NCBI RefSeq assembly: GCF_000020585.3
Contig: NC_011138.3
Coordinates: forward strand, 1,120,137 to 1,184,136
Length of the DNA stretch: 64,000 bases
Direction of reading: 5' to 3'
Origin: Alteromonas mediterranea DE
GTDB taxonomy: Bacteria; Pseudomonadota; Gammaproteobacteria; Enterobacterales; Alteromonadaceae
In this document: piece by piece, positions 4,099 through 62,127 of the stretch
Layout: each line of letters begins with the position of its first letter
Numbering within the stretch: the first letter of the stretch is position 1
Program-made: the position numbers and the translations under genes
The notes under the pieces: generated by a model
Database searches by the model: none
What the model was told of the DNA's origin: nothing
The model's input: the letters and a program-made list of their open reading frames with translations, nothing else

Positions 4099-4177
4099 GG
4101 GGTTCTAGGGATTTTCCCCTCTAAAAAGACATAATCCTCTGTAGACCACACCAATAAATGGCTGCGGAGGTGGTTTA
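4099..4177 (+). repeat. Terminal inverted repeat, left
   Basis: It pairs with 7232-7310. The mismatches are at GACATAATCC against GACTTAATCC and near the inner end (GTGGTTTACT against GTGGGTTACT). The GGGG start is typical of Tn3-family ends. Confidence 0.9.
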
Positions 4178-4192
4178 CTTTCAGCTTGGAGC

Positions 4193-40528: not shown

Positions 40529-41488
40529 ATGGCTTTAACTGTCAATACAAATATCAGTTCATTAAATGCACAACGTCAAATGATGGGTTCAAGCCTTGGA
40601 CTCGACCAAGCATTCGAGCGTTTATCGTCTGGTTTACGCATCAATAGCGCGGCAGACGATGCTGCGGGTTTGCAAATCACAGACAGATTACAATCTCAAA
40701 TTCTCGGATTAGACCAGGGTAATAGAAATGCGAACGATGGTATATCTTTAGCTCAGACCGCTGAAGGAGCGATGGAGGAGATTACATCCTCCTTCCAACG
40801 AGTGAGAACTCTTGCGGCTCAAGCAGCTAACGGCTCTAATTCTGATGTAGATAGGCTAGCCATCCAAGATGAAGTTCGAGCTTTGATGGAGGAGGTTAAT
40901 AGAATTGCGGGAGATACTACATTTGGTGGAGAAAATATCTTAGATGGTTCGTATAACGGCGTTTTTCAGGTGGGCGCAGACGCAATACAAACTATCGGCT
41001 TTGATATGAGAAATGTAGATGGAAACACCATCAGCGCCACCGGTGGCTTTACTCTTTCGGGTATTGCAAGTATCGCAAGCGCTATCGGAAGTGATGGATT
41101 ATCAGTACTAGCTGCAGAAGTAAGTGAAGCTGGGGGAACTGAACAGGCTAGTGAGTTTTCCTTTGCCGGTGTCTTTACGGCAGGCGGTATTAGTGTATCT
41201 ACCCAAGGGAATGCACAAGGTGTTTTGGCTGGAATGGACAGCCTGATTGCAGTTGTCGACAAAAAGCGAGCAGAGCTTGGTGCTGTTCAAAATCGTTTTC
41301 AGTCAACTATCAGCAACCAAGCTAACATTTCTGAGAATTTATCAGCAGCCAAATCTCGCATAAAGGATGCTGACTTTGCAGCTGAAACCGCAAAGCTTAC
41401 TAAAAATCAAATATTGCAACAGGCTTCTCAGACAATCCTTGCGCAGGCCAATCAGCGCCCTCAAGCCGCATTGAGTCTATTACAGTAA
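40529..41488 (+). CDS. Flagellin 1
   Basis: This 319-residue filament subunit has the conserved N-terminal coils (MALTVNTNISSLNAQRQMM, FERLSSGLRINSAADDAAG) and the C-terminal ANISENLSAAKSRIKDADFAAETAKLTKNQ and QANQRPQAALSLLQ. The central surface domain is short and rich in Ser and Gly, fitting O-glycosylation by Maf enzymes. From 40913 to 41349 the DNA is identical to flagellin 2 except for one base, while the first 384 bases differ at many silent sites. ATG 40529 follows GAGGAAAATACA. Confidence 0.95.
   Translation: MALTVNTNISSLNAQRQMMGSSLGLDQAFERLSSGLRINSAADDAAGLQITDRLQSQILGLDQGNRNANDGISLAQTAEGAMEEITSSFQRVRTLAAQAANGSNSDVDRLAIQDEVRALMEEVNRIAGDTTFGGENILDGSYNGVFQVGADAIQTIGFDMRNVDGNTISATGGFTLSGIASIASAIGSDGLSVLAAEVSEAGGTEQASEFSFAGVFTAGGISVSTQGNAQGVLAGMDSLIAVVDKKRAELGAVQNRFQSTISNQANISENLSAAKSRIKDADFAAETAKLTKNQILQQASQTILAQANQRPQAALSLLQ
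40913..41349 (+). repeat. 437-bp block shared with flagellin 2 (one mismatch)
   Basis: It matches 42360-42796. The one difference is GGCGCAGAC against GGCGGAGAC (Ala against Gly). The flanking coding DNA on both sides is clearly diverged. Confidence 0.95.
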
Positions 41489-41495
41489 AAGAGAA

Positions 41496-41535
41496 AAGCG
41501 CCCTTGATTTGTAAGGGGTAGTAACAAGGGCGCTT
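41496..41535 (+). terminator. Hairpin after flagellin 1
   Basis: AAGCGCCCTTG and CAAGGGCGCTT form an 11-bp stem with an 18-base loop directly behind the stop. There is no T-run, so termination may depend on another factor, or the hairpin may protect the 3' end. Confidence 0.6.
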
Positions 41536-41574
41536 AGAATGGACAGCAAAAGTGGAGACTAAAGCTTTATCCAT

Positions 41575-41607
41575 GTATGCCAAAGCTGTGTCATAGTTTT
41601 GGCATAC
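41575..41607. other. Second stem-loop between the flagellin genes
   Basis: GTATGCCAAA and TTTGGCATAC form a perfect 10-bp stem around a 13-base loop. No function is assigned. The rest of the 41489-41975 gap holds no convincing gene; a 90-codon frame at 41577 starts within this stem and has no ribosome site. Confidence 0.5.
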
Positions 41608-41846
41608 ACAATTTTAAAAGCAGAAATGATGCCATTATTTTTGGCCAAACAATCAATGCCCTACCTAGTTCTTCGAAAAGCTCTAAAAATATACTGAAAA
41701 AGAACGTCGCTAATTTTCCGTTTTTAGACGCTTTCCGGCAATGGTTTGCCGTGTTCATGGTCTGTAAAGTGAATAGTGGCCATAAGCAAAATTATTTACT
41801 CCACAGACTCCATCCTCAAAAATCTAAATTTTTTCACCTCAAATAC

Positions 41847-41873
41847 TAAAGATAGAAGTTTTGTAGTCGATAC
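41847..41873 (+). promoter_or_regulatory. FliA promoter of flagellin 2
   Basis: TAAA (41847-41850), 15 bases, GTCGATAC (41866-41873). This is close to TAAA-N15-GCCGATAA with exact spacing, giving a leader of about 95 bases. Confidence 0.8.
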
Positions 41874-41975
41874 ATAAAATAGCGAATTCTAATTTGTATT
41901 CGTTAATACACACTTGAACACGTTACTTAGGGGTAGGTAGGTGTCTCAAGATTTCTAAAAGAAGTGGAGGCTACT

Positions 41976-42935
41976 ATGGCTTTAACCGTAAATACCAATG
42001 TGAGTTCATTGAATGCTCAGCGTCAGCTAATGAATTCCGGAAATAGTTTGGATCAAGCGTTTGAGCGTTTGTCATCAGGGCTACGTATCAATAGCGCAAA
42101 AGATGATGCTGCAGGTTTACAAATTTCAAACCGCTTAGAAGGTCAAATCAATGGTTTGAACCAAGGTAATAGAAATGCCAACGATGGCATATCTGTGGCG
42201 CAAACTGCTGAAGGTGCGCTAGAGCAGGTAACTGATTCTTTTCAGAGAGTAAGAACGCTCGCGGCACAAGCTGCGAACGGCTCAAATACTGATGCTGACA
42301 GGCTAGCTATTCAAGACGAAGTTCGAGCTTTGATGGAAGAAGTAAATCGAATTTCTGAGGATACTACATTTGGTGGAGAAAATATCTTAGATGGTTCGTA
42401 TAACGGCGTTTTTCAGGTGGGCGGAGACGCAATACAAACTATCGGCTTTGATATGAGAAATGTAGATGGAAACACCATCAGCGCCACCGGTGGCTTTACT
42501 CTTTCGGGTATTGCAAGTATCGCAAGCGCTATCGGAAGTGATGGATTATCAGTACTAGCTGCAGAAGTAAGTGAAGCTGGGGGAACTGAACAGGCTAGTG
42601 AGTTTTCCTTTGCCGGTGTCTTTACGGCAGGCGGTATTAGTGTATCTACCCAAGGGAATGCACAAGGTGTTTTGGCTGGAATGGACAGCCTGATTGCAGT
42701 TGTCGACAAAAAGCGAGCAGAGCTTGGTGCTGTTCAAAATCGTTTTCAGTCAACTATCAGCAACCAAGCTAACATTTCTGAGAATTTATCAGCAGCGCAG
42801 TCGCGAATCAAAGATGCTGACTTTGCAGCTGAAACAGCAAAGTTAACTCAAAGTCAGATATTGCAGCAGGCATCTCAAGCAATTCTTGCTCAGGCAAATC
42901 AGAGGCCGCAGGCAGCATTAAGCTTATTAGGCTAA
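41976..42935 (+). CDS. Flagellin 2
   Basis: This second 319-residue flagellin has the same domain plan: N-terminal MALTVNTNVSSLNAQRQLM and C-terminal QANQRPQAALSLLG. Its conserved ends differ from flagellin 1 at many bases, yet the central variable domain is the same DNA. It has its own FliA promoter and a strong terminator. ATG 41976 follows AGTGGAGGCTACT. The two subunits would have the same surface-exposed, glycan-bearing face. Confidence 0.95.
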   Translation: MALTVNTNVSSLNAQRQLMNSGNSLDQAFERLSSGLRINSAKDDAAGLQISNRLEGQINGLNQGNRNANDGISVAQTAEGALEQVTDSFQRVRTLAAQAANGSNTDADRLAIQDEVRALMEEVNRISEDTTFGGENILDGSYNGVFQVGGDAIQTIGFDMRNVDGNTISATGGFTLSGIASIASAIGSDGLSVLAAEVSEAGGTEQASEFSFAGVFTAGGISVSTQGNAQGVLAGMDSLIAVVDKKRAELGAVQNRFQSTISNQANISENLSAAQSRIKDADFAAETAKLTQSQILQQASQAILAQANQRPQAALSLLG

Positions 42936-45733: not shown

Positions 45734-47836
45734 ATGGACGATATACAATTAACGCTGAAAAACTTGGAGGCCAAGATAGAATCGGCGTTGCAAAATCAAA
45801 AGCTTCAGCTGGCCTTCGAAAAAGAGTCAGATACAAGATTTAAAAAAAATTTATTGGCGTTTGAAAAGTATTTTCCCGCACTCTGCAAAGAAATAAAAAA
45901 TTTTGAACCAAGAGACGATTTTAAAGTTTTTGCTGCTAAGTCTGGCGCAGGCAATTTTATTCCAAAGGATAGTCCTGTACCATTGTATGGAGACGAGCCT
46001 ATTGCACAGTGCGAAGCGCAGGTTGAACATTATACTCAATCTGCTTTTTTTGGGCGCTCAGAGATATATAAGGAAGTTCCAAAGGGGGCCGGTATCGACG
46101 ACAGGCTTCACTTCCGCTATATGGTTGAGCTTGCACAGACGTTCGTGAATGCAGACCTACGTAGCGAAGATAAACTTTCCTCACTGCCACCCCATTACCC
46201 CACATGCATGATGTTTGGTCTTGGTTTAGGCTATCCGCTTAAAACTATCATGGAAAGGTTTTCATTTGATTATGTATTTGTTTGTGAACCCGATTTTGAA
46301 GTTTTTTACGCTAGTCTTTTTTGCATCGATTGGGAAAAAATATTTCTAGATTCCGATGCGAAAAGCGGCTGCTTATTTCTTAAGGTTGGTATCAGCTATG
46401 ACACTTTTTTTGATGAATTAACTAGCGTGGTTCAAAGCGTTGGCAATTCTTCATTGATAAGCAGTTTTTGCTATCAGCACACTCCCGGCGCTGAAATAAA
46501 CTCTTTAATAAAACGTTTTTTCGATGATTTTAGTCATCTTCAAGCCGGATATGGTTTTTATAACGATGCAATAACAGGCTTAGCGCACGGTTTAGAAAAT
46601 TTCAACGAGCATAAGTGTCCAGTTTTTTTACCAAATAGAAATTGCACCGAGAAGCTTAAAAGCCTAACAGCTTATGTAGTCGCAAACGGGCCCTCTTTAG
46701 ATGAAGCTATTGATGTTATTCGAGACAATCAACACCAGGTTGTTATCTTTGCTGCTGGAACTGCGTTAAATTCACTTCTAAAGTTAGGGGTTACACCTGA
46801 TTTTCACGTGCTTGTAGAAAGACCGAAAACAACTTACGACTATTTATTGCAAACCTTAAATCCTGATGTTCTTGGGAAGATAAACCTGCTAAGCGTAGAC
46901 GTGATGTATCCGGAAGTTCCTCTTCTTTATAATTGGTCGGGGCTCGCATTAAAAGGGCCAGAAGCGTCTTCTCTGCTTTGCCAATATGATTATTTCACGA
47001 ATTATAGAAAAGTGCTTCCAGCAATTCCTCATCCTGGCCCATTAGTTGCGAATACGGCGCTTTCCTTTGCTGCATCTCTTGGTTTCGGTGAGGTATATAT
47101 GTTCGGTGTTGATAATGGATACCCAACGAGCGGAAAAACACACTCGGAACATAGCATATACAATGAGAGGGACCGTCACGCGGCTTTCAACGTTGATACC
47201 AAGGGCGCTGTTTACGAGTTGGATGGTAATTTTGAGGGGACGGTAAAAGCAACTTCGTTAATGGCACAGGCACACCAACAAATGGAGTTGCTTGTTAAAG
47301 TTGCAGCTAATACACAGTTTTATAATGTGGGAAGTGGTGCAAAAGTAAAAAGAGCAATACCGCTAAAAAGCGAAGACGTTCTTCGCACCCCGAAAGTGTT
47401 TGAAAAGGAAGATGTTGTAGAAAAAATTAAATCTGAATTTTTCCAGAAATTTGAAGTTACTAAGCCATCAAAATTAGTTGGTTTAGATGAGTTTGAATCT
47501 CTATGTGATTATTTAATCGAAATATGCAACAGACCTTATAGTACGAGAAAAGAGGCCTCTGATATGCTTAAGGCTCAAGCACGTGTTGTCTTTGCGTACA
47601 AAGGACGGAAGTTTGGGCATCTATACCATGTTATAAAGGGAAGCATGATGTATTTTCATTGTCCTCTTATTAGTCTGTTGTATTTGTATAATGATGAAGA
47701 AAAAACTCTCGATACCTTTGCAAACGCACTGGGTGTATGGAATCGGTACATACTAGCAATGAAATCCGACTTTAGAAGATCCTGGCAAAAGCGTTGTGAA
47801 CATTCTCTTGAAAAAGCAGCAATGCTAAAAATTTAA
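45734..47836 (+). CDS. Motility accessory factor (Maf) glycosyltransferase, DUF115
   Basis: Maf proteins transfer nonulosonic acids such as pseudaminic acid to Ser/Thr of flagellin. The 700-residue protein contains the central DUF115/MptE-like domain (LKSLTAYVVANGPSLDEAID, VVIFAAGTALNSLLKLGVTPDFHVLVERP, SFAASLGFGEVYMFGVDNGYP, KTHSEHSIY) between N- and C-terminal helical regions. It follows the FliT-like gene by 11 bp, so the transferase is coupled to flagellin chaperone expression. It is the only Maf in the window. Confidence 0.9.
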   Translation: MDDIQLTLKNLEAKIESALQNQKLQLAFEKESDTRFKKNLLAFEKYFPALCKEIKNFEPRDDFKVFAAKSGAGNFIPKDSPVPLYGDEPIAQCEAQVEHYTQSAFFGRSEIYKEVPKGAGIDDRLHFRYMVELAQTFVNADLRSEDKLSSLPPHYPTCMMFGLGLGYPLKTIMERFSFDYVFVCEPDFEVFYASLFCIDWEKIFLDSDAKSGCLFLKVGISYDTFFDELTSVVQSVGNSSLISSFCYQHTPGAEINSLIKRFFDDFSHLQAGYGFYNDAITGLAHGLENFNEHKCPVFLPNRNCTEKLKSLTAYVVANGPSLDEAIDVIRDNQHQVVIFAAGTALNSLLKLGVTPDFHVLVERPKTTYDYLLQTLNPDVLGKINLLSVDVMYPEVPLLYNWSGLALKGPEASSLLCQYDYFTNYRKVLPAIPHPGPLVANTALSFAASLGFGEVYMFGVDNGYPTSGKTHSEHSIYNERDRHAAFNVDTKGAVYELDGNFEGTVKATSLMAQAHQQMELLVKVAANTQFYNVGSGAKVKRAIPLKSEDVLRTPKVFEKEDVVEKIKSEFFQKFEVTKPSKLVGLDEFESLCDYLIEICNRPYSTRKEASDMLKAQARVVFAYKGRKFGHLYHVIKGSMMYFHCPLISLLYLYNDEEKTLDTFANALGVWNRYILAMKSDFRRSWQKRCEHSLEKAAMLKI

Positions 47837-48123
47837 GTCGTCATATAGCACTATCTGAATATGTTGGACCCACGATGCTCAGACTATATAATTACCCTTA
47901 TGTTTGCTGGAGCAATTTGCGTCAAAGCTTAAGTGAATTCTCAAAGGTCCTTTGAATTTGTTCAACCGAAAGAGTTAATCAAACAAGAGCTAAAGTTGAA
48001 TCTGATGTCTATGTAGTATCAATGCAGTCTATACCTTGTTATCTCATTAGGTAATCAAAAAATTTTTAAAGTAACTTACTAAACGAGCGTTACAATAAAG
48101 CTCGAAAAAAGCCGAGTAAAATA
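47837..48123. other. AT-rich gap before the glycan genes
   Basis: No gene and no clear promoter were recognised in these 287 bases. Confidence 0.5.
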
Positions 48124-48801
48124 ATGAAGGAAGTTGTCTTGATAGTTATTGCACATCCAGATGATGAAGCAATTTCAATGGCAGGAACAATCTTTAAACA
48201 CACCGAACAAGGTGATAGTGTTGTAGTAATGTCGATGACCAATGGAGTTGGTTCAAGATACGGCCAAGCTTCTTTTGATGTCGAGAACAGGAAGCAGGCT
48301 GCTAAGCTGGCAAGCAAAATTTTGGGTTTTGAGTGGGGCGATTGTTACAATTTTAATGATAATGCAATGGATTCTTACCCCCTGATTGAAATTGTGAAAG
48401 TAATCGAGAAAGCCAAACAAGAAGTCGGGCCTACGATTGTTTACACACATAGCGGTGCGGATTTGAATGTAGATCATAGAGTTGTTGCTAATGCTGTGTT
48501 AACTGCTTTTAGGCCTCAACCAAATGAAATTTGTAAAGAGTTGAGATTATTTGAAGTGGCATCTGCAACGGACTATGGTTGTGAAGCAATTACAGGCAGA
48601 TTTTCTCCTAATTTATACATCGATATTACCAACGAATGGCATAAAAAAGTTGAAGCATTGGCAGCCTATTGCGCTGAGATGAGGCAATATCCCCACAGCA
48701 GATCGGTTCAATCTATCAAAAATTTAACAAGAATCCGAGGAAATCAGGTTGGGTTAGAGTTTGCAGAAGCATTTGAAGTCGTGAGAAGAATTGAGCGATG
48801 A
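48124..48801 (+). CDS. PIG-L/LmbE-family N-deacetylase
   Basis: PIG-L enzymes remove acetyl groups from N-acetyl sugars using zinc. The 225-residue protein has the metal motif AHPDDEAI near residue 11 and the second histidine motif in LNVDHRVVANAV. The next gene overlaps its stop by 4 bases and is a formyltransferase. Within a pseudaminic-acid locus this pair could replace an N-acetyl by an N-formyl group; the substrate is inferred. Confidence 0.88.
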   Translation: MKEVVLIVIAHPDDEAISMAGTIFKHTEQGDSVVVMSMTNGVGSRYGQASFDVENRKQAAKLASKILGFEWGDCYNFNDNAMDSYPLIEIVKVIEKAKQEVGPTIVYTHSGADLNVDHRVVANAVLTAFRPQPNEICKELRLFEVASATDYGCEAITGRFSPNLYIDITNEWHKKVEALAAYCAEMRQYPHSRSVQSIKNLTRIRGNQVGLEFAEAFEVVRRIER

Positions 48802-49466
48802 GAATTGTAATCTGTAATTCTAAAACTTGGTTTGAGCTAAGACCTGAGATTTCAGCAATCCACGATGTTCTCAATATTGAGACAAAGTCTGATTTGAGTT
48901 TAGACGTTTTGACTAACTTCCAACCAGAGCTCATTTTTTTTCCACATTGGAATTGGCTGGTTGAGAAACAAATATTCACTAAATTCACGTGCATCGTTTT
49001 TCATGTTGCGCCTCTCCCTTACGGACGTGGCGGCAGTCCAATCCAAAACTTAATAAAGCGCGGTTTCACGAGCTCGCCTGTTTGTGCACTAAAAATGGCT
49101 GGTGGAATCGATGATGGCCCGATCTACGATAAAGAAGAAATAAGTTTAAAGGGGACATTGTCCGAAATACTTGCTAATTTAAATAGTGTCGTAAATAAAT
49201 TAATCTTTCAGCTAATTAATCATCTTCCAACTCCAATTGAGCAAAGTGGAGAGGCTGAGACATTTAAGCGATTAGGTTATGAAGATAATAAAATCAGTTG
49301 CGAAGCTAATATCGGTGAGTTTTACAACGCGATAAGAATGTTGGATGACTCAAGTTATCCAAGTGCTTATTTGTCATTTAAAAAGGTCAATATCGAATTC
49401 TCAAATGTCAAGAAAGAAAACGGTGAGCTAATTTGCGAGGCTAGAATTTTAGCAAAGGAAAGGTAA
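48798..49466 (+). CDS. Formyltransferase-family protein (sugar N-formylation candidate)
   Basis: This 222-residue protein resembles the formyl-tetrahydrofolate-dependent transferases of the Fmt/ArnA type. It has a core HVAPLPYGRGGSPIQNLI (the substrate loop around the catalytic His), MAGGIDDGPIYDKEEI and a C-terminal formyltransferase-like domain. It is too short and too diverged for methionyl-tRNA formyltransferase. Overlap with the deacetylase gene suggests consecutive steps on one sugar. Confidence 0.8.
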   Translation: MRIVICNSKTWFELRPEISAIHDVLNIETKSDLSLDVLTNFQPELIFFPHWNWLVEKQIFTKFTCIVFHVAPLPYGRGGSPIQNLIKRGFTSSPVCALKMAGGIDDGPIYDKEEISLKGTLSEILANLNSVVNKLIFQLINHLPTPIEQSGEAETFKRLGYEDNKISCEANIGEFYNAIRMLDDSSYPSAYLSFKKVNIEFSNVKKENGELICEARILAKER

Positions 49467-49699
49467 AAAACAATACAAGTGAAAGTTCTTATTACAAGCT
49501 CAATAATCAAATACTAAGGGTGCTAGTTAGTTTTGCGCTGAGATTTTGCAATGAGATAGTGAAGTTTGTCACTAAAACCTATGAAATTGTTCGTACATTT
49601 TGGGGAAGCTTGGGATTTGTTAATGCTTTGCAAAAAAAACGCTTAACGTATTCGCTAAGTTTTGAGAGTAAAAAAATTGGCTAAAAATTAAATAATTCT

Positions 49700-50119
49700 A
49701 TGAAATACCATTTCGAACGCGTAATCGCTACTTCAGATCAGACTAGGAGGTTATATGAATTGCTTGAGCGAAGAGAGTATAAAATTAGTCATACAAACCT
49801 TCCGAGCTACGAAGAACATTGTGATTTTGTAAAGAAAAATCCTTACCTGCATTGGTACATAGTCAGTGACGGACCAGAGCACCTTGGCTCATTTTACATA
49901 AAAAAAGATAATTCAATCGGTTTGAATATATACAGTCCGAGTCGAGCAGTATTAACCGCTTGTTTAGATTTCATCAAACGTAATTTTACCCCGCAAAATT
50001 CAATAGCCTCTATGGTGCCTGATTATTTTTACATAAATGTAGCGTACTCAAATAAGAAAGCGATAGATATTTTGGAGGACTTAGGGTTGTCTCCTATACA
50101 AATAAGTTTGAGGTTTTAA
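49700..50119 (+). CDS. GNAT-like acetyltransferase, possibly PseH role
   Basis: This 139-residue protein has a GNAT-like pattern: LPSYEEHCDFVKKNPYLHWYIV, then LGSFYIKKDNSIGLNIYSPS, and a C-terminal VAYSNKKAIDILEDLGL helix. In pseudaminic acid synthesis PseH acetylates the 4-amino group of the altrose intermediate, and this gene ends 2 bp before pseI. The acetyl-CoA loop is not clearly visible, so the PseH role is an inference. The 233-bp gap before it holds no gene. Confidence 0.6.
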   Translation: MKYHFERVIATSDQTRRLYELLERREYKISHTNLPSYEEHCDFVKKNPYLHWYIVSDGPEHLGSFYIKKDNSIGLNIYSPSRAVLTACLDFIKRNFTPQNSIASMVPDYFYINVAYSNKKAIDILEDLGLSPIQISLRF

Positions 50120-50121
50120 GT

Positions 50122-51165
50122 ATGAAAATAGATCAAACGAATATAAATGAAGCTCACAAGCCTTATATAATTGCTGAGTTATCGGCGAATCATGGTGGCG
50201 ACCTGTCTAGGGCAAAAGAATCTATTACCAAGGCTGCTGAAGTAGGAGTTTCAGCTATTAAAATACAAACATATACTCCTGATACAATGACTTTAGATAG
50301 TCTGCAAGATGATTTTATCGTCAAGGATGGCTTGTGGGCCGGTCGCAGTCTTTACGAGCTTTATACAGAAGCTTACACGCCTTACGAATGGCATGAGGAA
50401 TTATTCAATCATGCAAAAAATTGTGGTGTCACTATTTTTTCTACGCCATTCGACGAAACTGCCGTAGACCTTCTCGAGTCGCTCAACACACCTGCTTATA
50501 AAATTGCATCTTTTGAAATTGTTGATTTACCGCTCGTTAAATATATCGCCAGTAAAAATAAGCCAATTTTGATGTCTACAGGTATGGCATCACAAACCGA
50601 AATAGAAGAGGCAGTAACTAGTGTTAGGGCGAATGGGGACTGCGAATTACTTTTATTTCACTGCATAAGCAGCTATCCAGCGGTAACGGAAGATTCAAAT
50701 TTAAGAAATCTCAATTGGTTAAGAGAAAAATTTGGAGTAGAGGTTGGCTTGTCAGACCATACAACAAACAATATTGCTGCATTGACAGCTATTGGCATGG
50801 GAGCTGTCGCAGTCGAAAAGCACTTCAAATTAGATACAAATGATTGCGGACCCGATTCAAGTTTTTCACTTTCAGTAGAAGAACTACAAAGCTTAGTGAT
50901 TGAGTGCAACGAGGCATGGACTGCAAAAGGTTCTTTCGGATTCAAAAGGGCACATTCAGAGGCTCAAAATATGGTTTTTCGTCGCTCGCTGTATTTTGTC
51001 AATAGTCTTAAAAAAGGTCAGTCAATTAGTAGAAATGATATAAGACGAATTCGGCCTGGATATGGTCTTCCACCGAAATACTTTGATAGTATTTTAGGAA
51101 GGGAAGTGACCAAGGATGTCCATCCTGGAGAAGCTGTGACTTTAAAAAATGTTTCAAAAATGTAA
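50122..51165 (+). CDS. pseI: Pseudaminic acid synthase PseI (NeuB family)
   Basis: PseI condenses 2,4-diacetamido-2,4,6-trideoxyaltrose with phosphoenolpyruvate to pseudaminic acid. The 347-residue protein has the NeuB TIM-barrel motifs (YIIAELSANHGGDLSRAKESI, TIFSTPFDETAVDLLE, YKIASFEIVDLPLV, LSDHTTNNIAALTA) and the C-terminal antifreeze-like SAF domain (RRSLYFVNSLKKGQSISRNDIRRIRPGYGLPP). The altrose-type KIASFEI and LSDHT blocks fit PseI rather than sialic acid synthase. An IS110-type element lies 132 bp downstream. Confidence 0.92.
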   Translation: MKIDQTNINEAHKPYIIAELSANHGGDLSRAKESITKAAEVGVSAIKIQTYTPDTMTLDSLQDDFIVKDGLWAGRSLYELYTEAYTPYEWHEELFNHAKNCGVTIFSTPFDETAVDLLESLNTPAYKIASFEIVDLPLVKYIASKNKPILMSTGMASQTEIEEAVTSVRANGDCELLLFHCISSYPAVTEDSNLRNLNWLREKFGVEVGLSDHTTNNIAALTAIGMGAVAVEKHFKLDTNDCGPDSSFSLSVEELQSLVIECNEAWTAKGSFGFKRAHSEAQNMVFRRSLYFVNSLKKGQSISRNDIRRIRPGYGLPPKYFDSILGREVTKDVHPGEAVTLKNVSKM

Positions 51166-51383
51166 GTGGCTATATGTCAGAAATAATTCTTCCGTAGTCT
51201 TTGTTTCTATTAATTTATTCTAGCTATTTTTAATAAGTGGGCTTACAGAGTGAAGCGAATGATATGCTTCCTCTTGCTATGAAAGTGAGCAATGGGATGG
51301 ACTCCTCCTCAACTTGAATTGTTGTCCTTTTTTTGGTCAATATGGTGATGGTGAGTTACCAGCATTCAAATTAGGAGAAGCCC

Positions 51384-52427
51384 ATGGGTAAGATTACTCG
51401 AGTCGGTGTTGATATTGCAAAAGCCGTTTTTCATGTGCACGCGGTAGATAGGTTTGGTGAACGGCAGTGGAAAAGAAAATACTGTCGAACAAAGTGGTTG
51501 GATGCTATTGAGGACAGGGTCCCTAAAGGGACTGAAATTGCAATGGAAGCCTGTGGTTCATCTCACTATTGGGGGCGAGAATTACAAAAACGGGGTTTTA
51601 AAGTCAAAATCATTCATGCGCAATTTGTTAAGCCTTACGTGAAAAGTAATAAAAATGATGCGATTGATGCAGAGGCAATATGTGACGCTATGAGTCGTCC
51701 GAACATGCGCTTTGTAAGTGTGAAATCAAGTAAGCAACAAGACATACAATCTATACACCGTATCAGGGACAAGTTGATGGTTCAAAAAGCATCCAAAGCA
51801 AATCAAATACGAGGAATGGTAAGCGAATATGGGCTAGTTGCGCCAATGGGTATCAACAAACTGAGAGAAGCCATCCCCCTTTGGTTGGAAGATGCGGAAA
51901 ATGGTTTGTCGGCGCTTTTTCGCTTGTTGCTACGTGATTTGTTTGATGACTTAAGGCAACTCCAAGAGCGAGTCGATACGCTCGACACGCTTATTGAGAA
52001 AGAAGTCAAAAATGACCCTGTGGCAAGTTCGCTACTTCAGTTACGGGGTATTGGTATCCTGTGTGCCAGCGCATTGTCTTGCGCTATTGGTGATGCGAAA
52101 GGATACCGTAAAGGTAGGGATTTTGCTGCTTCTATTGGTTTAACACCGAGACAGCACAGTACCGGTGGCAAGCCTAGGTTACTAGGTATCAGTAAGCGAG
52201 GCGATGGTTACTTAAGAAAACTACTTGTTCATGGTGCACGGTCAGTCATCCGGCATGCTCATCGACATGATGATAATTTAAGTAAATGGATTGAAAAGCT
52301 TTGCGCATACAAGCACGTTAATACGGTAACTGTTGCGTTAGCAAACAAAACAGCGCGTGCAGCTTGGGCTATGGTGAATACAAACGAAAGTTATGATCCA
52401 GAGTTAATAGCAAGCACTCAAGTTTAA
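51384..52427 (+). CDS. IS110-family DEDD transposase
   Basis: This 347-residue RNA-guided-type recombinase has the N-terminal RuvC-like DEDD domain (VGVDIAKAVFHVHAVD, AMEACGSSHYWGREL, KNDAIDAEAICDA). The C-terminal Tnp20 domain includes GIGILCASALSCAIGDAKGYRKGRDFAASIGLTPRQ and the conserved Ser region STGGKPRLLGISKRGD. It is full length and looks intact. It is read in the same direction as the noncoding tail that would hold its guide RNA. Confidence 0.92.
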   Translation: MGKITRVGVDIAKAVFHVHAVDRFGERQWKRKYCRTKWLDAIEDRVPKGTEIAMEACGSSHYWGRELQKRGFKVKIIHAQFVKPYVKSNKNDAIDAEAICDAMSRPNMRFVSVKSSKQQDIQSIHRIRDKLMVQKASKANQIRGMVSEYGLVAPMGINKLREAIPLWLEDAENGLSALFRLLLRDLFDDLRQLQERVDTLDTLIEKEVKNDPVASSLLQLRGIGILCASALSCAIGDAKGYRKGRDFAASIGLTPRQHSTGGKPRLLGISKRGDGYLRKLLVHGARSVIRHAHRHDDNLSKWIEKLCAYKHVNTVTVALANKTARAAWAMVNTNESYDPELIASTQV

Positions 52428-52672
52428 ACGAATTAAAAAATACGAAAAGTTTTCATCCCAGTTGCAAAGTAAAATGTGAGATGGCTAACAGGTAAGACCG
52501 ACACTTGAAAAACCTTACCCGGACGAAGAGCCTTTAAGCTCGTGTGAGCGCTAAGGAGCAAGTGTGCGAATAGCCCATAGAGGTTCGATGCAGTAAATGA
52601 AAATGCATCATTGAGAAACCGGATACACGTTGGCAATCATACCCAGAGTTATCGAACAAATTACTTGCAAAA
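52428..52672 (+). ncRNA. Predicted guide (seek/bridge-type) RNA region of the IS110 element
   Basis: The 245 bases between the transposase stop and the right subterminal repeat lack a gene but have pairing potential (for example GGTAAGACC with its neighbourhood, and AGCTCGTGTGAGCGCT). Known IS1111-group elements encode their targeting RNA at this place. The exact ends and guide loops cannot be set from one copy. Confidence 0.5.
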
Positions 52673-52808
52673 GAGGAGGAGTCCATACACGTCCGGTAAT
52701 CCCCACATTCAATTTATACATTAGCTACGGCATGGTGCTCTTTTTTGCTAAGGAGAATAATCATGCAGCGATTTCAACGATGAGATATACGAGACTGTAT
52801 CAGTCTAT

Positions 52809-54549
52809 CCGTCATTCCGCACCTAATTAACTGATTTATTTTTCTTGACACCGATCCCCCATTTTGATCTATTACTCATCTTTGGGTGCAGCAAAATGGC
52901 TATTTCTACTTCCTCCCTATCAGGGTTAACTATCAAACGCATGGACCATCTTGGTTTAGTATCCGGTATGTGTCGGGAGCTTGGTATCGCTAAGATGATT
53001 GATGCGGTTATCCCAAAAAACAATGAGCATAAGGTGACTCATGGAGAAGCCTTTGTCGCCATGCTTCTCAATGGTTTGGGTTTTCACAGTCGCACCCTAC
53101 ACATGTTTGCAGATTTTTTCGCTGACAAACCCACTGAACGCCTGATTGGTCCGGGTGTACAGGCCAAGCACCTAAATGATGATGTACTTGGTCGGTGTCT
53201 TGATGCCCTCTATGAAGCAGACGTGTCGTCGCTATATCAAGTCATGGCTGAGCGAGTGGTCGACACGCTGGGGTTAGCCAGTAACGCTGTGCACCTGGAT
53301 ATCACCAGTTTTCATGTCGATGGTGAATACGCTGTTGATGAACAAGATAGCGAGACTAAACGCATTGAGCTGGTTAAAGGTTACAGCCGGGACCACCGGC
53401 CAGAATTAAACCAGGTGATACTGGAGCTGATTTGTGAAAATCAAGCCGGTATCCCTGTCTATATGCAGGCTTTAAGTGGCAATACGAATGACCAGAAAGC
53501 TTTTGCAGAAGTCACCCGTCACCATATTCAGTGTTTAAAGGCCGCACAACAATGCCGATATTTTGTTGCCGATGCGGCGCTTTATACCGAAGAATCTATC
53601 ACTGCCCTGGCAACACAGAACCAATTGTTTATCTCACGAGTCCCCATGACCATCAAAGACGCCAGGCAGCACGTAAGCAACGTGACGGAAGCCAGTCTCA
53701 CTGCCATGGGTAACGGTTACCACGGTTGTTGGGTGGATGCAGACTATGCCGGAGTGAAACAGAAATGGTTGATTCTGCGCAGTGAGCAGGCGACTAAACG
53801 GGAGCAGCAGACGCTGGCCCGCAATTTACTTAAAAGCAGTGAAAAAGAGCACAAGCAATTTATTAAATTGTGTAAGCAACGCTTTGCCTGCCAGACCGAT
53901 GCCGAGACGGCAATGAAAGTCTTTAGCAAGACGTTAAAAACAACCCGCATCAGTGAGTTTGACTGTATAGCCCACCCCGTGTTCTTAGGTAAAGGTCGCC
54001 CCAAAAAAGGACAACAGCCAGCATACTATGAATACCAACTCGATGGGCTGATAGCCACCTGTTTGGATAAAGTTGGAATAGCTCAGGCGCAAACCGGGAT
54101 GTTTATCCTCGCAACCAATGATTGTAGCGGGGAACTCAGTATGCAGACATTGTTAGATACCTACAAATCCCAGCAACATGTTGAGCGGGGATTTCGTTTT
54201 CTCAAAAGTCCGGAATTTTTGACATCCTCACTGTTTCTAAAGAAACCGGAAAGGATTGAAGCGCTGCTCATGGTGATGACGTGCAGTCTGATGATATACG
54301 CCGCCCTTGAACACCGGATCCGAACGTCATTAAAAGAAAGACAACAATACTTCCCTGACATGAAAAAGAAACCGTCCCAGAAGCCAACGGCACGATGGGT
54401 ATTTCTGTGTTTTAGTGGGATCCACGAAGTCAGCATTGGTGACTCTCCCCCCGTAATCACAGACAAACAGGAGCGCCAGCAGGTGATCATTGATGTACTT
54501 GGCACATTATACCAAGAGATTTATTCCTGAATTTGATGCGGAATGTCGG
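52809..54549 (+). mobile_element. IS1634-family element with 6-bp target duplication
   Basis: The ends CCGTCATTCCGCACCTAATT (left) and CCGACATTCCGCATCAAATT (right, inverted) match well. GTCTAT flanks both sides (52803-52808 and 54550-54555). The element of 1741 bp looks complete and relatively recent because the duplication is exact. Confidence 0.88.
52896..54530 (+). CDS. IS1634-family transposase
   Basis: The product is 544 residues when started at ATG 52896. It has DDE/IS4-type features: VHLDITSFHVDGEY with the first acidic residue, YFVADAALYTEESI with the second, and the late YKSQQHVERGFRFLK (YREK-like) block. Length and motifs match IS1634 proteins without interruption. More upstream start codons lie inside or near the left terminal repeat. 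Confidence 0.9.
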   Translation: MAISTSSLSGLTIKRMDHLGLVSGMCRELGIAKMIDAVIPKNNEHKVTHGEAFVAMLLNGLGFHSRTLHMFADFFADKPTERLIGPGVQAKHLNDDVLGRCLDALYEADVSSLYQVMAERVVDTLGLASNAVHLDITSFHVDGEYAVDEQDSETKRIELVKGYSRDHRPELNQVILELICENQAGIPVYMQALSGNTNDQKAFAEVTRHHIQCLKAAQQCRYFVADAALYTEESITALATQNQLFISRVPMTIKDARQHVSNVTEASLTAMGNGYHGCWVDADYAGVKQKWLILRSEQATKREQQTLARNLLKSSEKEHKQFIKLCKQRFACQTDAETAMKVFSKTLKTTRISEFDCIAHPVFLGKGRPKKGQQPAYYEYQLDGLIATCLDKVGIAQAQTGMFILATNDCSGELSMQTLLDTYKSQQHVERGFRFLKSPEFLTSSLFLKKPERIEALLMVMTCSLMIYAALEHRIRTSLKERQQYFPDMKKKPSQKPTARWVFLCFSGIHEVSIGDSPPVITDKQERQQVIIDVLGTLYQEIYS

Positions 54550-54826
54550 GTCTATTTGAGCAACAAAAATAAAGTGGCCTCACTGCGGTGGATTCTTGTC
54601 GCCAGTAGAAGATTAATGGTCAAACTTACTACACCAGACGTCGTGATCTTCGGCTGCAACGAACAAGCCGCAAGGTCGTTCATGTGAAACGTGAAGTCAC
54701 GAAAGTTGAGTCGTACACTGATTAAATGGGTTGCGACCTCCTCCTGAAATTAGGAAACGTGCAACTTAGCATGCCAACCAATTTTAACCCTCACTGTGTT
54801 GGTAACGTAATGAAAGCATTGGCCGA
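54550..54826 (+). pseudogene. IS66-type accessory gene (tnpA) remnant
   Basis: Near 54728-54829 the frame GCDLLLKLGNVQLSMPTNF to VMKALAE ends in a stop overlapping the next start (GAATGAAGATG). This is the layout of IS66 tnpA before tnpB. No intact start can be found upstream, and the IS1634 insertion may have cut it. Confidence 0.55.
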
Positions 54827-55066
54827 ATGAAGATGTTTGTTGAGCCTGCCGACATTTATTTATACATGGCTATAGTCGACTTTCGCAAATCGATTAACGG
54901 TTTAATTGTCGTTGTTGAGCAGAATATGAGCCTTAATTCGTTTCGCGATGCACTGTTCGTGTTTTGCAATAAAAAGCGCGATAAGGTCAAAATACTCTGT
55001 CCACTTCCCGTAAACTGAGACAGACAAAATTAGAGTTTTCTGTAATTATTAATGCAGGAGACGACT

Positions 55067-55336
55067 ATGAAAAAATCACGCTATACAGAATCTCAGATCA
55101 TCGGAGTCTTAAAAGAAGTCGATGCTGGTAGAAAAGTTGAAGAAGTGTGCCGCCAACACGGTATTAGCAGTGCCACTTATTACAACTGGAAGTCCAAATA
55201 CGGTGGCATGGAAGCGTCTGACGTTAAAAGACTGAAAGAGCTTGAAGAAGAAAATGCCAAGCTAAAGAAGATGTTCGCTGACGTTAGCCTAGAAGATAAT
55301 GCGATTAAGGAGCTTGTCGCAAAAAAGGGTTGGTGA
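55067..55336 (+). CDS. IS3-family OrfA
   Basis: This 89-residue helix-turn-helix protein (YTESQIIGVLKEVDAGRKVEEVCRQHGISSATYYNWKSKYGG) has a C-terminal leucine-zipper-like coil (LKELEEENAKLKKMFADVSL). ATG 55067 follows CAGGAGACGACT. Its end overlaps orfB near an A-run (GCAAAAAAGG), where -1 frameshifting would make the OrfAB transposase. Confidence 0.9.
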   Translation: MKKSRYTESQIIGVLKEVDAGRKVEEVCRQHGISSATYYNWKSKYGGMEASDVKRLKELEEENAKLKKMFADVSLEDNAIKELVAKKGW

Positions 55337-56136
55337 CAGCAGAGAAGCGAGAGTGCGCCAGCATACTAGTTGATGCGGGGCTGAGTATCGTAAAGGCTTG
55401 CCTATTTGTTGGTATTAGCCGTTCGACCTTCTACCGCCCCGAACGAGACTGGCGCAAAGCAGATGCTGCTGTCATTGATGCTATCAATGCTGTGCTTGAT
55501 AAGTCGCCACGAGCAGGCTTCTGGAAGTGCTTTGGCCGAATGCGTTTCAAAGGCTTTCCGTTCAACCATAAGCGCGTTTATCGCGTGTATTGTCAAATGG
55601 GATTGAATTTAAGGCGCAGAACCAAACGTGTGCTCCCTAAACGAATAGCACAGCCGCTGGAAGTCTTGGAGCAAGCGAACTACCAATGGGCGTTGGACTT
55701 TATGCATGACACTTTATACTGCGGTAAGCGGTTCAGAACATTAAATGTGGTGGATGAAGGAACACGGGAATGCTTAGCCATTGAAGTAGACACCTCATTA
55801 CCTGCTGGCCGCGTAGTACGCGTATTAGAACAGCTTAAAACTGAACGCGGATTGCCTAAGCAACTGCGCATGGATAATGGCCCCGAGCTAATTTCAGCGA
55901 CGCTAACAGATTGGTGTCAGAACCATAATATTGAACTGTTATATATTCAGCCAGGCAAGCCACAGCAAAATGGCTTTGTAGAACGCTTTAATGGTTCATT
56001 CCGCAGAGAGTTTCTCGATGCCTACTTGTTTGAGAATATCGGCCAGGTGAGAGAAATGTCTTGGTTCTGGCGACTAGATTATAACGAAGAGAGAACTCAT
56101 GAAAGTCTCGGAAATCTGCCTCCGGCAGCTTACTGA
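55330..56136 (+). CDS. IS3-family OrfB (DDE transposase)
   Basis: The 268-residue catalytic part has an N-terminal HTH_21 region (RAGFWKCFGRMRFKGFPFNHKRVYRVYCQMGLNLRRR) and an rve integrase core. The catalytic acids are in WALDFMHDTL, LRMDNGPEL and NGFVERFN. It appears intact. Expression is probably as a frameshift fusion with OrfA. Confidence 0.92.
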   Translation: MVTAEKRECASILVDAGLSIVKACLFVGISRSTFYRPERDWRKADAAVIDAINAVLDKSPRAGFWKCFGRMRFKGFPFNHKRVYRVYCQMGLNLRRRTKRVLPKRIAQPLEVLEQANYQWALDFMHDTLYCGKRFRTLNVVDEGTRECLAIEVDTSLPAGRVVRVLEQLKTERGLPKQLRMDNGPELISATLTDWCQNHNIELLYIQPGKPQQNGFVERFNGSFRREFLDAYLFENIGQVREMSWFWRLDYNEERTHESLGNLPPAAY

Positions 56137-56469
56137 GAAAAACTGGAAAACTCTAACTTAGAGTTGTGTCATTAATGGGGAAGTGGACAACTCTACTGGG
56201 ATAAAACAGGCATTGCACTCTGGTATGAACGCCTCGAGAAGCAGCGGTTTAAGTGGTCTGTCGATGCGGAATTACAGCAAATGCATATGAGTGAACAGCA
56301 ACTGCAGTGGCTGTTATCGTGCTACGATGTCATAGGCCATTAGTCGTTGCTCTATAGGGCATCAGGCTTATAACCTGTGATCATAAGTAGCGATTATCGT
56401 TCATGAGACGTTATCAATAATTTCGGGTAATTAGTGCCTTTTTGCATGATAATAACGTTATAAATAGTG

Positions 56470-57343
56470 ATATCGAAAGCTTATCTGACCCATCGAAACT
56501 TGAAAAGATGTATGCTGAAGAACGTATCAAAGCGTATATTCGCTAGGAAATCATCGAGGGAAAGTTCTAAGGTCATTCCAAAAGCACGAGATGGCAATGG
56601 AGTTAGTCAAGCAGCGTCAGTTCAGTGCTCGTCTGGCCAGGGATTGCGTGGAAATAATTCAAAGTTGCCATCGGTATGTGGCAACGCTGTCGAGCGAAAA
56701 TGCGCTTATTGCCGATTGGTTATTACGGCTAACTGCCCACTACCCATAAACGGTGCGGTTTTGGGCTGTGCTTTTTATGCTTGTGCTACGCGAAAGACTT
56801 CAGGTGTAATCACGAATGTGTGTATCGCATCTATAAAGAACTTGAGCTGAACCTTCGTATCAAGCCAAGAAAAAGGCTCATACGAGATAAGCCTGACACA
56901 CTGAGTGTACCGATAAAACCTAATCAAGTATGGTCAATGTCATTGACGATCATAACCGCGAAGGACTCGCGATAGATGTTAGACTTATCGATGCCAAGTG
57001 CCCGCGTTATCCAGTCGTTGGTGCGGACAATTGAATGGCGAGGAAAAGCAGCAGCGATCCGATGTAATAATGGTCCAGAATACGTTTCAAACCAATTAGT
57101 TGAGTGGGCAAATTATCAGCGAACCTCGTTATTGTATATCCATCCGGGTAAACCTATGCAGAATGCATATCATATGTAGAAAGGTTTAATCGGACGGCAA
57201 GGCATGAATGGTTAGATATGCATGAATTCGTTTCAATTGATGCACAATCGATAGCTACAAAATGGTTATCTACGTACAATAAGGAAAGGCCTAACTCGGT
57301 GATTGGCGGTGTGCCGCCAGCCACTATTTTAAAGGCAGCGTGA
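56470..57343 (+). pseudogene. Decayed IS3-family transposase
   Basis: Pieces of one IS3-type protein appear in shifting frames: KMYAEERIKAYIR, EMAMELVKQRQFSARLARDCV, CVYRIYKELELNLRIKPRKR, IEWRGKAAAIRCNNGPEYVS, YIHPGKPMQN and RFNRTARHEWLDMHEF to ERPNSVIGGVPPATILKA. Several frameshifts, an in-frame stop and loss of the first catalytic Asp region make it inactive. It is a different lineage from the intact IS3 element upstream. Confidence 0.85.
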
Positions 57344-57522
57344 TTATTTTTGGAATCGATGCTAGTTAAAATGGAAGGATTAAAATTGTAACTACTCTTG
57401 TTTTTTGGCGATTACAGAGTACTACCAACAGGCAGGTGCTCTCTTCTCACCATTTAACCAAGAGCGATGCATTTATTATATGAATTCGGTAGTCTTATGT
57501 ACTTCAATTTTTATGGTGGTTT

Positions 57523-58167
57523 ATGTATTTTTCTAGTGTAAATATTCTAGTTGATAATCAGTCATGGATATTACAACATGCGACAATTCTCTATAATAAA
57601 TTAAAAGAGTTAAATCTAAAGGTAAGGCTTGTGAGATCTCATAATGATTTGGATTATGCTGATGTGACTTTTTTATTGGGCTGTACACAAATTGTTTCAA
57701 CTGAGAACTTATCTAAAAGTAAATATAACTTAGTTGTTCACGAAAGCGCACTGCCGCAGGGTAGAGGGTTTGCACCTATGGCATGGCAGATTATCAATGG
57801 GGTTAACACTATTCCAATATCCTTAATTGATGCTACAGATAAAATAGATGGTGGGAAAATCTGGCTACAAAAACAGATGTACTTAAATGGTGATGAACTT
57901 TACGATGAATGGCGAAGCATTCAGGGTGAGTACACTATAGCACTGTGTTTGGAATTTATCGTATCTTATGACACTTTAGTTGCTCAACCCCAGAAAGGTG
58001 AAGCTTCATACTACAAGCGAAGAACACCTGAAGATAGTGAACTAGATGTCAACCAATCTATCGCTCAGCAATTTGATTTACTAAGAACTGTTGATAATGA
58101 AAACTTCCCTGCATTTATTGATTACCGCGGTAGTAGATATACAATCTTAATTAATAAACAAAAATGA
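57523..58167 (+). CDS. Second formyltransferase-family protein
   Basis: This 214-residue protein has the formyltransferase loop LVVHESALPQGRGFAPMAWQIINGVN with the likely catalytic His, and IDATDKIDGGKIWLQKQMYL, which resembles sugar N-formyltransferases. It differs strongly from the one at 48798. It lies after the IS patch and just before a pseG remnant, as in loci where a formyltransferase sits with pseG. Substrate unknown; N-formylation of a nonulosonic acid precursor is inferred. Confidence 0.75.
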   Translation: MYFSSVNILVDNQSWILQHATILYNKLKELNLKVRLVRSHNDLDYADVTFLLGCTQIVSTENLSKSKYNLVVHESALPQGRGFAPMAWQIINGVNTIPISLIDATDKIDGGKIWLQKQMYLNGDELYDEWRSIQGEYTIALCLEFIVSYDTLVAQPQKGEASYYKRRTPEDSELDVNQSIAQQFDLLRTVDNENFPAFIDYRGSRYTILINKQK

Positions 58168-58409
58168 GTCACTTTTTTGATTTATATGTCAGAGCAGATG
58201 CATTGAGTGTAATTGAATTAGGTCACACATATAGAACGCTCGTTTTGACAAATACGTAATGCTGCATGGGTGTAAAGCGCATTATTTTGCGGAGCCCATG
58301 ATAATTATGATTAGAACTGGCTACTAGAGTATGGCGTTAAGCTCCATTCAGGAAAGTCACACACAGAGCAGAACTAGACGGTATTTAAAATAAGACTGGC
58401 TACAAAAGC

Positions 58410-58817
58410 TGGTTAGGTGCAAAAGTATTTATGATAGCAATGAGTTTATTTTGCTTTTGTTTCAATTTCAAAAAGATGAAGCTATTGTACTAATTGACCA
58501 TGATGGAGTTGACCTGTATTGGGAAAAGCACGTTAGACAACATCGTTACCAGTTAGTAACAATAAATAATAAGGCGTCATGAATCATTTGCTGCATATAT
58601 GCTCGATAATCTAACATTTAATCGAACGGCTCAAGAGTTCTCAATTTGTGTTAATCATAATAAGCACGTTTTAGCTGGTGCAAGGATGTGCTTTATAGAC
58701 GATAGCTTTCTTGAATTACAGAAAAAACATTAAATAGACGAGGTAAAATAACGTCAGTTAGAAATGTTTTGGTAATGTTTGGTGGTTCAGGACCATTAAA
58801 CGCGAATTCAAGTCCGA
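58410..58817 (+). pseudogene. pseG: pseG remnant (UDP-sugar hydrolase)
   Basis: Fragments in shifting frames recall PseG: EAIVLIDHDGVDLYWEKHVRQ and LVTINN, then KHVLAGARMCFIDDSFLELQKK and, one frame on, VRNVLVMFGGSGPLN (compare the GG-D-P-N loop of PseG). Stops and frame changes interrupt it, and it runs into an IS30-like remnant. PseG removes UDP from the sugar before PseI acts, so its loss matters for the pathway unless another copy exists outside. Confidence 0.65.
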
Positions 58818-58835
58818 AGTGCACCACTCGCTAAA

Positions 58836-58925
58836 TTAGGTTGCATCGAGTAATTTGTTAAAGACGACTTCAGGCTGTTTGTAACCGAAGCACTCTCTTG
58901 GTCTCAAGTTCAGAGGTGCCCAGTT
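58836..58925 (-). pseudogene. IS30-family transposase C-terminal remnant
   Basis: The minus strand encodes LNLRPRECFGYKQPEVVFN and a short tail with a stop. This matches the LNNRPRKCLGFKTP-EVF end of IS30 transposases. Only about 30 codons remain. Confidence 0.65.
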
Positions 58926-58960
58926 CAATTTTTAAATAATCTTCAGGTTGACTAAACCTT

Positions 58961-59665
58961 TTATTTAAAATGGCTCATCTCTTTCAGTACTTTATACATA
59001 ACCTCTGCTCGCTTCCAATCTTCGGGCGTATCAATGTCCTGAACGATATATGAAGGAAGCTTAAACATCTGCGAGTTTTCCGAAAAGATTTCTTTCGAAG
59101 AATCAAGCCACGTAGAAGTGTGAGCAATATAAAGCTGACCCGCGTCATGGAAGGTATGCGGTAAATCTTGGGAGCGCTTATCGATATTTTCCGGATCAAA
59201 TACGCGAATTTTACCATCCTCATTTTCAAGTAAGGCTCTTTGGATTGGAAACGAAAATTGATTTGCAGTAAATAAGTAATCAGGTTTACCTTGTTGAAAC
59301 AGTGCAAAAGCTTTTTCGATAATATCGCGCGTGACAAAAGGAGCGGTCGCATAAAGACATAAGCAATTTTCAACCTCATTCCCAAGAGCTATATATTTAG
59401 TGATCGCATCACGAATTACCTCGGTTGTTCCTGTCATATCGTCAGCAAGTGCTTTATTTCGAATAAAAGGCACCTCTGCTCCCAATTCAGTGGCAATTTC
59501 CGCAATCTCAAAGTCATCAGTGGATACAATAACTTTTTCAATAACGTCAGTTTCCAATGCTGCTTTTATGGAGTAAGAAATAATTGGCTCGCCGCAAAAG
59601 CTGAGAGCATTTTTCCTTGGAATGCGTTTGCTACCGCCTCTAGCCGGTATTATTGCTATGTTCAT
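58961..59665 (-). CDS. pseF: Pseudaminic acid cytidylyltransferase PseF
   Basis: PseF makes CMP-pseudaminic acid, the donor used by Maf. The 234-residue protein has the CMP-sugar synthetase start IAIIPARGGSKRIPRKN, KVIVSTDDFEIAEIA and the late FHDAGQLYIAH and VQDIDTPEDW motifs. It is the third gene of the minus-strand pseB-pseC-pseF run, 68 bp after pseC. Confidence 0.93.
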   Translation of the reverse strand: MNIAIIPARGGSKRIPRKNALSFCGEPIISYSIKAALETDVIEKVIVSTDDFEIAEIATELGAEVPFIRNKALADDMTGTTEVIRDAITKYIALGNEVENCLCLYATAPFVTRDIIEKAFALFQQGKPDYLFTANQFSFPIQRALLENEDGKIRVFDPENIDKRSQDLPHTFHDAGQLYIAHTSTWLDSSKEIFSENSQMFKLPSYIVQDIDTPEDWKRAEVMYKVLKEMSHFK

Positions 59666-59733
59666 AAAAGTTGGCTCTTTTGGTTAAAGATTGTGATACG
59701 CTCGCATTTACAAATAGAAAAAAGTTGAAGAAG

Positions 59734-60902: not shown

Positions 60903-60903
<1 letters not shown>
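59734..60903 (-). CDS. pseC: PLP aminotransferase PseC
   Basis: PseC aminates UDP-2-acetamido-2,6-dideoxy-4-hexulose at C4 with pyridoxal phosphate. The 389-residue DegT/DnrJ-family protein has MIPYGKQHIDDEDIKAVVETLKSDWLTQGP, EDASHAVGAKYD (PLP-stacking region) and the lysine-bearing CVFSFHPVKIITTMEGGMAMT. Its start overlaps the pseB stop by one base (TAATG), so the two are translationally coupled. Confidence 0.94.

Positions 60904-62127
<1,224 letters not shown>

Follow-up and report, generated by a model that had tools for sequence, protein, structure and literature searches.

Probable recent gene conversion confined to the centre of tandem flagellin genes in Alteromonas mediterranea, and its recurrence among relatives

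Two tandem flagellin genes of Alteromonas mediterranea DE, A (5' copy) and B (3' copy), have very probably undergone recent gene conversion of their central part, as one case of a recurrent, domain-limited process in a flagellin type of about 319 residues. The genes lie in the window, a stretch of 64,000 nucleotides (positions 1,120,137 to 1,184,136) of a single-contig 4.48-Mb genome, and appear to have exchanged a tract that is now nearly identical between them and is bounded on both sides by strongly diverged coding DNA. The ends of these flagellins would keep the identity of each copy across species, and the centre would tend to match within a genome and to turn over between genomes. Coordinates are collected in Table 1.

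Table 1. Flagellin genes, shared block, diagnostic codons and candidate glycosyltransferase gene in the window.
Feature	Coordinates	Strand	Evidence and remarks
Flagellin A (5' copy, 319 aa)	40529..41488	+	ORF; PF00669, 149.0 bits; PF00700, 89.2 bits; gap-free alignment to B
Codon 128 of A	40910..40912	+	Gly where B has Glu; final divergent codon on the 5' side of the block; A-type G 21/25, B-type E 24/30
Converted block in A, from codon 129 into codon 274	40913..41349	+	1 difference in 437 bp
Codon 150, only mismatch (40977)	40976..40978	+	Ala here, Gly at the matching codon of B (42423-42425)
Codon 262, direction marker	41312..41314	+	Ser in A, the usual B-type residue; B partner 42759-42761
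Codon 275 of A	41351..41353	+	Lys (Gln in B); just after the block; A-type K 20/25, B-type Q 30/30
Flagellin B (3' copy, 319 aa)	41976..42935	+	ORF; PF00669, 149.6 bits; PF00700, 84.2 bits
Counterpart of the block in B, probable source of at least the right end	42360..42796	+	Alignment, breakpoint fit, diagnostic residues
Maf-type glycosyltransferase, candidate flagellin glycosyltransferase (putative role)	45734..47836	+	PF20157 and PF01973

Results

The flagellin pair and its genomic setting

Both copies pass the curated cut-offs for the flagellin N-terminal helical domain (PF00669, 26.6 bits) and the flagellin C-terminal domain (PF00700, 23 bits), and they stand in tandem, preceded by FlgK- and FlgL-like ORFs and followed by FlaG-, FliD- and FliS-like ORFs, names that were given by reading of the translations rather than by family searches. 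The region from 45734 to 61901, whose ORFs were partly scanned, encodes the Maf-type protein, a PIG-L deacetylase, two formyltransferase-like proteins, NeuB and a DegT aminotransferase, and is probably a flagellin-glycosylation island; it is broken up by three transposase genes of the IS110, DUF4277/DDE and rve integrase types. A further, divergent flagellin-like ORF of 279 aa with both flagellin domains (62086-62925; PF00669 and PF00700) is found near a DegT-type aminotransferase gene, away from the main pair. Outside the window, the same genome carries a short flagellin N-terminal fragment with an internal stop (G000:C1:1445325-1445504; L006, L119) and another flagellin gene with a 449-aa ORF (G000:C1:3920066-3920410, minus strand; L003, L118), which is far from the main flagellin cluster.

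The promoter search of the A and B copies gave no exact match to the sigma-28 pattern used; sigma-54-like matches with at most two mismatches numbered 83 against 67.35 expected, none of them decisive. In invertible flagellar phase switches, such as that of Salmonella fliC/fljB, inverted repeats flank the switch segment; phase inversion was rejected on a count of 0 inverted repeat pairs of at least 25 nt between 38000 and 46000. A silent third cassette was likewise rejected, as the genome itself matches the block at the two known places only (E 1e-20), and a search of the plasmid collection gave no match.

A step in divergence along the two genes

The genes align gap-free at an offset of 1447, with 128 differences over 960 bases, of which 96 fall in gene positions 1-384 (codons 1-128), 31 in the last 139 bases and a single one (40977 versus 42424) in the 437-bp block between them. 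The edges of the block are exact, as the flanking positions 40912 and 41350 both differ. By the Nei-Gojobori method, 63.5 of 88.8 synonymous sites differ in codons 1-128 and 22.5 of 31.5 in codons 274-319, and synonymous change outside the block is near saturation; in codons 129-273 none of 104.0 synonymous sites differs, with a 95% upper bound of about 0.029 on synonymous change. For a preset stretch of 437 among 960 positions to take up no more than one of 128 differences by chance has a probability of 7e-36, or 4e-33 once multiplied by 524 windows. A two-breakpoint fit delimits the tract as codons 129-273 with a likelihood gain of 79.8; none of 200 shuffles gained more than 12.6. The sequence-only reading had described a block of 437 bp with one base difference between divergent flanks and had ascribed it to gene conversion of the central domain. 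Its description is exact (1/437 against 96/384 and 31/139), synonymous divergence along both genes is stepped rather than uniform, and conversion is supported by this step together with the likelihood gain. A repeat search did not report the block, picking up instead just a 73% similarity across the first 300 bases.

In the predicted structure (mean pLDDT 73.7, poor at both ends), a hairpin at residues 143-159 lies between helices 106-129 and 226-318; leading solved matches of the model include flagellar filaments of Vibrio, Pseudomonas, Stenotrophomonas and Shewanella. The block starts at the end of helix 106-129, covers the hairpin and the variable part and reaches halfway along helix 226-318; in domain terms, the exchanged tract would extend from the point where the predicted N-terminal D1 helix stops to midway along the predicted C-terminal helix.

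Direction and age of the exchange

Residues 128 and 275, just outside the block, largely split A-type from B-type proteins and are retained in the window pair. Among the matches listed, residue 262 is Asn in 24 of 25 A-type and Ser in 22 of 30 B-type proteins, and the single A-type exception with Ser262, P0003, bears the window's own centre. Because A carries the usual B-type Ser262, copying probably ran from B to A, at least at the right end, as judged from this one site; the exchange had been called one-way, and to this the one residue lends modest support. The route would most likely be RecA-type homologous recombination without crossover.

The mismatch at codon 150 looks like an inherited difference that escaped conversion rather than a new one, because Gly150 occurs in nine of 119 proteins among the matches listed, all nine with a B-type N end, and because the closest sister pair P0010/P0002, from another assembly and compared at the protein level, has the same split (Ala in A, Gly in B). 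If the mismatch is inherited, the block may combine two tracts or consist of a single patchy one.

Close database proteins

A total of 120 flagellins were listed of 7,832 database proteins, and 119 of them were aligned, P0001 (a 511-aa A-B fusion) being left out by its length; in typing of the ends, ties (13 at the C end) were assigned to B. Fifteen pairs presumed to share a contig were formed from the window pair and 14 pairs that the analyst picked from the 120 listed proteins because their longest contigs are equal in length, and neighbours were sought among these 30 proteins only. The ends were nearest to those of the partner in 0 of 30 proteins, with two ties (P0059, P0074), and the centre in 26 of 30; P0016, P0017, P0092 and P0102, which depart from this, belong to one lineage present in two near-identical versions. 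Between window B and its sister P0002, 0.6% of the end residues are different, against 23% of codons 151-236, a stretch that is wholly shared by A and B of the window.

By identity, the closest centre to that of the window among 120 listed of 777 matches is that of the near-identical P0003 (99%), followed by those of the window's own sister lineage (81% and 80%); import of the centre from another lineage was rejected, with no donor in this set. Hybrid flagellins were noted among the 119 aligned proteins, 25 of them A-then-B (22 clear) and 13 B-then-A (5 clear), with P0008, P0009 and P0024 as examples; these and P0001 may be real hybrids or assemblies joined through the shared centre.

Recurrence of matched centres among relatives

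The set of relatives comprised the window, L115, L116 and 70 further loci (including L037 of Salinimonas profundi), which amounts to 73 loci with 198 flagellins, each an ORF scoring more than 330 bits to B; 66 of the 73 loci have two or more. The sample leans to flagellins like B because the 70 loci derive only from the best 80 of 252 relatives. The centre was less than half as diverged as the ends in 12 of 194 pairs, belonging to 12 of 66 loci (window included), and no pair had the reverse; the comparison of centres across relatives that the sequence-only reading had proposed reveals a recurrent pattern. Thirteen low-divergence tracts (window included, two from L038) were called at a likelihood gain above 18 and a divergence below 0.06, thresholds chosen by the analyst. 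Their edges differ, and on average 95% of a tract lies inside codons 129-273, a confinement reached by none of 20,000 random placements. Likelihood gains above the highest shuffled value of the window pair were seen in 25 of the 194 pairs, some of which may reflect conserved stretches.

Nearest neighbours were counted as coming from the own or another locus, with the seven one-copy loci left out and the genomes of Colwellia sp. D2M02 and P. peptidolytica each split over two loci. The nearest flagellin was from the own locus in 8 of 191 cases for the ends, in 86 for the centre (3 ties; another locus in 102) and in 94 for codons 151-236 (3 ties), figures that depend on how densely species are sampled. 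Copies within a genome are closer than those across genomes in the centre (26/30 among the database pairs, about half in the wider set) and not over the whole gene, given 0/30 (2 ties) and 8/191 for the ends, and the claim of concerted evolution is therefore limited to the centre. In three-copy loci, the nearest ends elsewhere came from the same gene position in 142 of 144 cases, and the nearest codons 151-236 in 104 of 144. On average, the nearest cross-locus match differed by 0.062 and the own-locus copy by 0.200 in codons 1-16, against 0.376 and 0.280, respectively, in codons 193-208; averages of within-locus pairs per 16-codon bin were 0.18-0.34 in the ends and 0.16-0.29 in the centre. Two further observations concern single loci: the flagellins of L095 (Rheinheimera maricola; 4626-5594 and 5939-6907) are nearly identical over the whole gene, and those of L115 (Salinimonas-type; 4066-5013 and 5596-6531) have the same central deletion relative to relatives.

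Turnover between sibling genomes

Pseudoalteromonas gelatinilytica (L054) and P. shioyasakiensis (L100) are colinear through three flagellin genes. The p-distance between them is mostly 0-0.1 in ends and flanks, 0.1-0.2 in the shoulders and 0.3-0.5 in the centres of all three genes; between the two genomes, copy 1 differs by 0.046 in the ends and 0.393 in codons 151-236, copy 2 by 0.111 and 0.412, and copy 3 by 0.073 and 0.397, respectively. Copies 1 and 3 have a common core within each genome (0.070 in L054, 0.041 in L100), and the core of copy 2 is more distinct from its neighbours (0.23-0.25 and 0.34-0.36, respectively). Of 40 close cross-locus pairs, which share genomes and hence are not independent, 38 had more fourfold-site divergence in codons 151-236 than in the ends; this points to replacement of the core rather than protein-level change alone, with codon-usage effects possible. 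The suggestion that a new surface type had been swept into both copies finds no support in the window itself, whose centre, among the matches listed, is closest to that of P0003 and its sister lineage; in these relatives, two sibling genomes do carry different centres, each common to copies of the genome.

Trees and limits of the process

For the ends, AU tests rejected a clade of copies 1 and 3 in L054 (p 1.7e-7) and in L093 (p 0.0115) and did not reject a clade of the first copies of L054 and L100 (p 0.447). The latter was rejected for the centre (p 5.9e-5), whose tree recovered both own-genome pairs (100/99 and 100/100). Window A and B as a clade were not rejected in the larger tree of ends (p 0.447), and a DNA tree of ends that includes three Salinimonas-type genomes groups A with B (90/99, not starred). 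At this depth the ends are near saturation and their DNA tree did not show A-type orthology, the A-type clade being not rejected (p 0.196); for the centre it was rejected (p 5.6e-5). The three Salinimonas-type genomes are at most weakly homogenised, with centre values of 0.131, 0.227 and 0.232.

The sequence-only reading had also assumed that flagellin paralogues normally conserve their ends and diverge in the centre. This fits the 279-aa flagellins examined in the genus, with 0 of 73 pairs reversed, and, according to the available text of PMC6299084, S. putrefaciens; it does not hold in the type of about 319 residues (12/66 loci reversed, window included) or, by the text of PMC5126078, in Campylobacter jejuni PT14. 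As no homogenised centre was found in these 73 pairs of 279-aa flagellins, taken from 20 other genomes of the genus picked by the analyst, the process is not general to flagellins. The nearest 279-aa flagellin was from the own genome in 10 of 64 cases for the centre and in 3 of 64 for the ends.

Discussion

Multiple flagellins in one genome are often explained by their differences. In the present type, such difference is retained in the ends, and the exposed part is homogenised time and again, so that two functions are kept apart within a single gene. The reversed pattern recurs, is confined to the centre and is accompanied by a closer relationship of the ends across genomes; selection would keep the ends distinct and the centres matched. 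Plausible reasons for matching are contacts between neighbouring variable regions, as in the FlaA filament of S. oneidensis, and a common glycosylation apparatus (Maf and NeuB are encoded downstream), and phage or grazer pressure may be a further one. It falls just short of an even prospect that the centre is an exchangeable cassette, in which a new centre would enter one copy, often from another lineage, and would then be copied to the other flagellins of the genome, the ends being fixed by function and the window being caught shortly after copying. If so, sibling strains with swapped centres would offer a direct test of what drives change of the filament surface.

Several explanations of the pattern were considered. 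Selection for surface change, by which a new centre, perhaps from another strain, is copied into every flagellin and presents one surface to phages, grazers or glycosylation enzymes, is a tentative possibility. It is consistent with the sharp rise in distance at the centres of L054 and L100 and the common core of copies 1 and 3 in each, with the excess of fourfold divergence in codons 151-236, and with the Maf and NeuB genes downstream in the window. Against it stand the lack of a donor for the centre of the window among the 120 listed matches, the distinct core that copy 2 keeps in both sibling genomes, and the non-independence of the 40 cross-locus pairs. A neutral alternative, in which only the centre retains enough identity to start recombination and matching surfaces are not selected, seems unlikely. 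A homogenised centre would be the best substrate for the next event, but ends and centre are similarly diverged on average within loci, yet the tracts are confined to the centre, a comparison of averages that is no proof of selection.

An independent recent tandem duplication of the whole gene, with ends that then diverged fast, is highly improbable. The genes are in tandem, the DNA tree of ends at Salinimonas level joins A with B, and the available text of PMC6053082 names such duplication as an alternative in Alteromonadales; a fresh duplication is nevertheless excluded for the window because near-saturated synonymous ends adjoin a centre without synonymous change, and one duplication cannot give both. 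The ends of the 15 presumed pairs, none of them nearest to the own partner, and the shared gene position of nearly all nearest ends in three-copy loci argue against it as well. An assembly collapse or polishing error that copied one centre onto the other is scarcely credible, even though hybrid database flagellins (25 A-then-B and 13 B-then-A of 119) may be assemblies joined through such regions, because the genome is a single contig, the sister pair, from another assembly, likewise has Ala in one copy and Gly in the other at the retained mismatch, and independent assemblies show the pattern too, with edges that differ. Gene conversion of the centre remains the preferred reading, and it carries a warning that assemblies may join different flagellins through a common centre.

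Comparison with known systems

Wang and Chen (2018; PMC6053082), in the text available, count fla of Alteromonadales (8 species) as a case of long-lasting concerted evolution and mention tandem duplication as an alternative. Their case and the window share the order, the tandem arrangement and a greater likeness of copies within genomes than across species, and for most of their genes the likeness reaches synonymous sites, as it does in the centre of the window (0/104). However, the whole gene is reported there as concerted, whereas here only the centre is and the ends keep copy identity; their eight species may hold another flagellin type. The present results bear on this printed ambiguity between conversion and repeated tandem duplication.

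The window pair also resembles, across a distant lineage, flaA/flaB of C. jejuni, which are likewise tandem copies with divergent ends and a common centre. As described in the text available of PMC5126078, those of strain PT14 have most of their differing residues at the termini (26, with 4 in the centre), and intragenomic recombination between them is reported there, with citation of Harrington 1997, Wassenaar 1995 and Meinersmann and Hiett 2000. In the Campylobacter-type pair, one copy is under sigma-28 and the other under sigma-54. Replacement of the centre across sibling genomes, seen here in Pseudoalteromonas, is absent from that account of Campylobacter, so far as the available text goes. 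Shewanella FlaA and FlaB are likewise encoded by two adjacent genes; according to the portions available of PMC6299084, PMC11839096 and PMC3765264, these polar flagellins are placed differently along the filament and both carry glycans, which in S. oneidensis sit mostly on serines of the centre. Neighbouring variable regions touch each other in the FlaA filament of S. oneidensis (PMC11839096, in part), and FlaA and FlaB of S. putrefaciens differ mostly in the variable region (PMC6299084, in part), opposite to the window.

No description of domain-limited conversion in these flagellins was found in the open-licence literature, mostly judged by listing. The event in A. mediterranea is real, but because related bacteria show the same habit it belongs to a process already reported for flagellins, to which the limits of the exchange within the gene are what is added.
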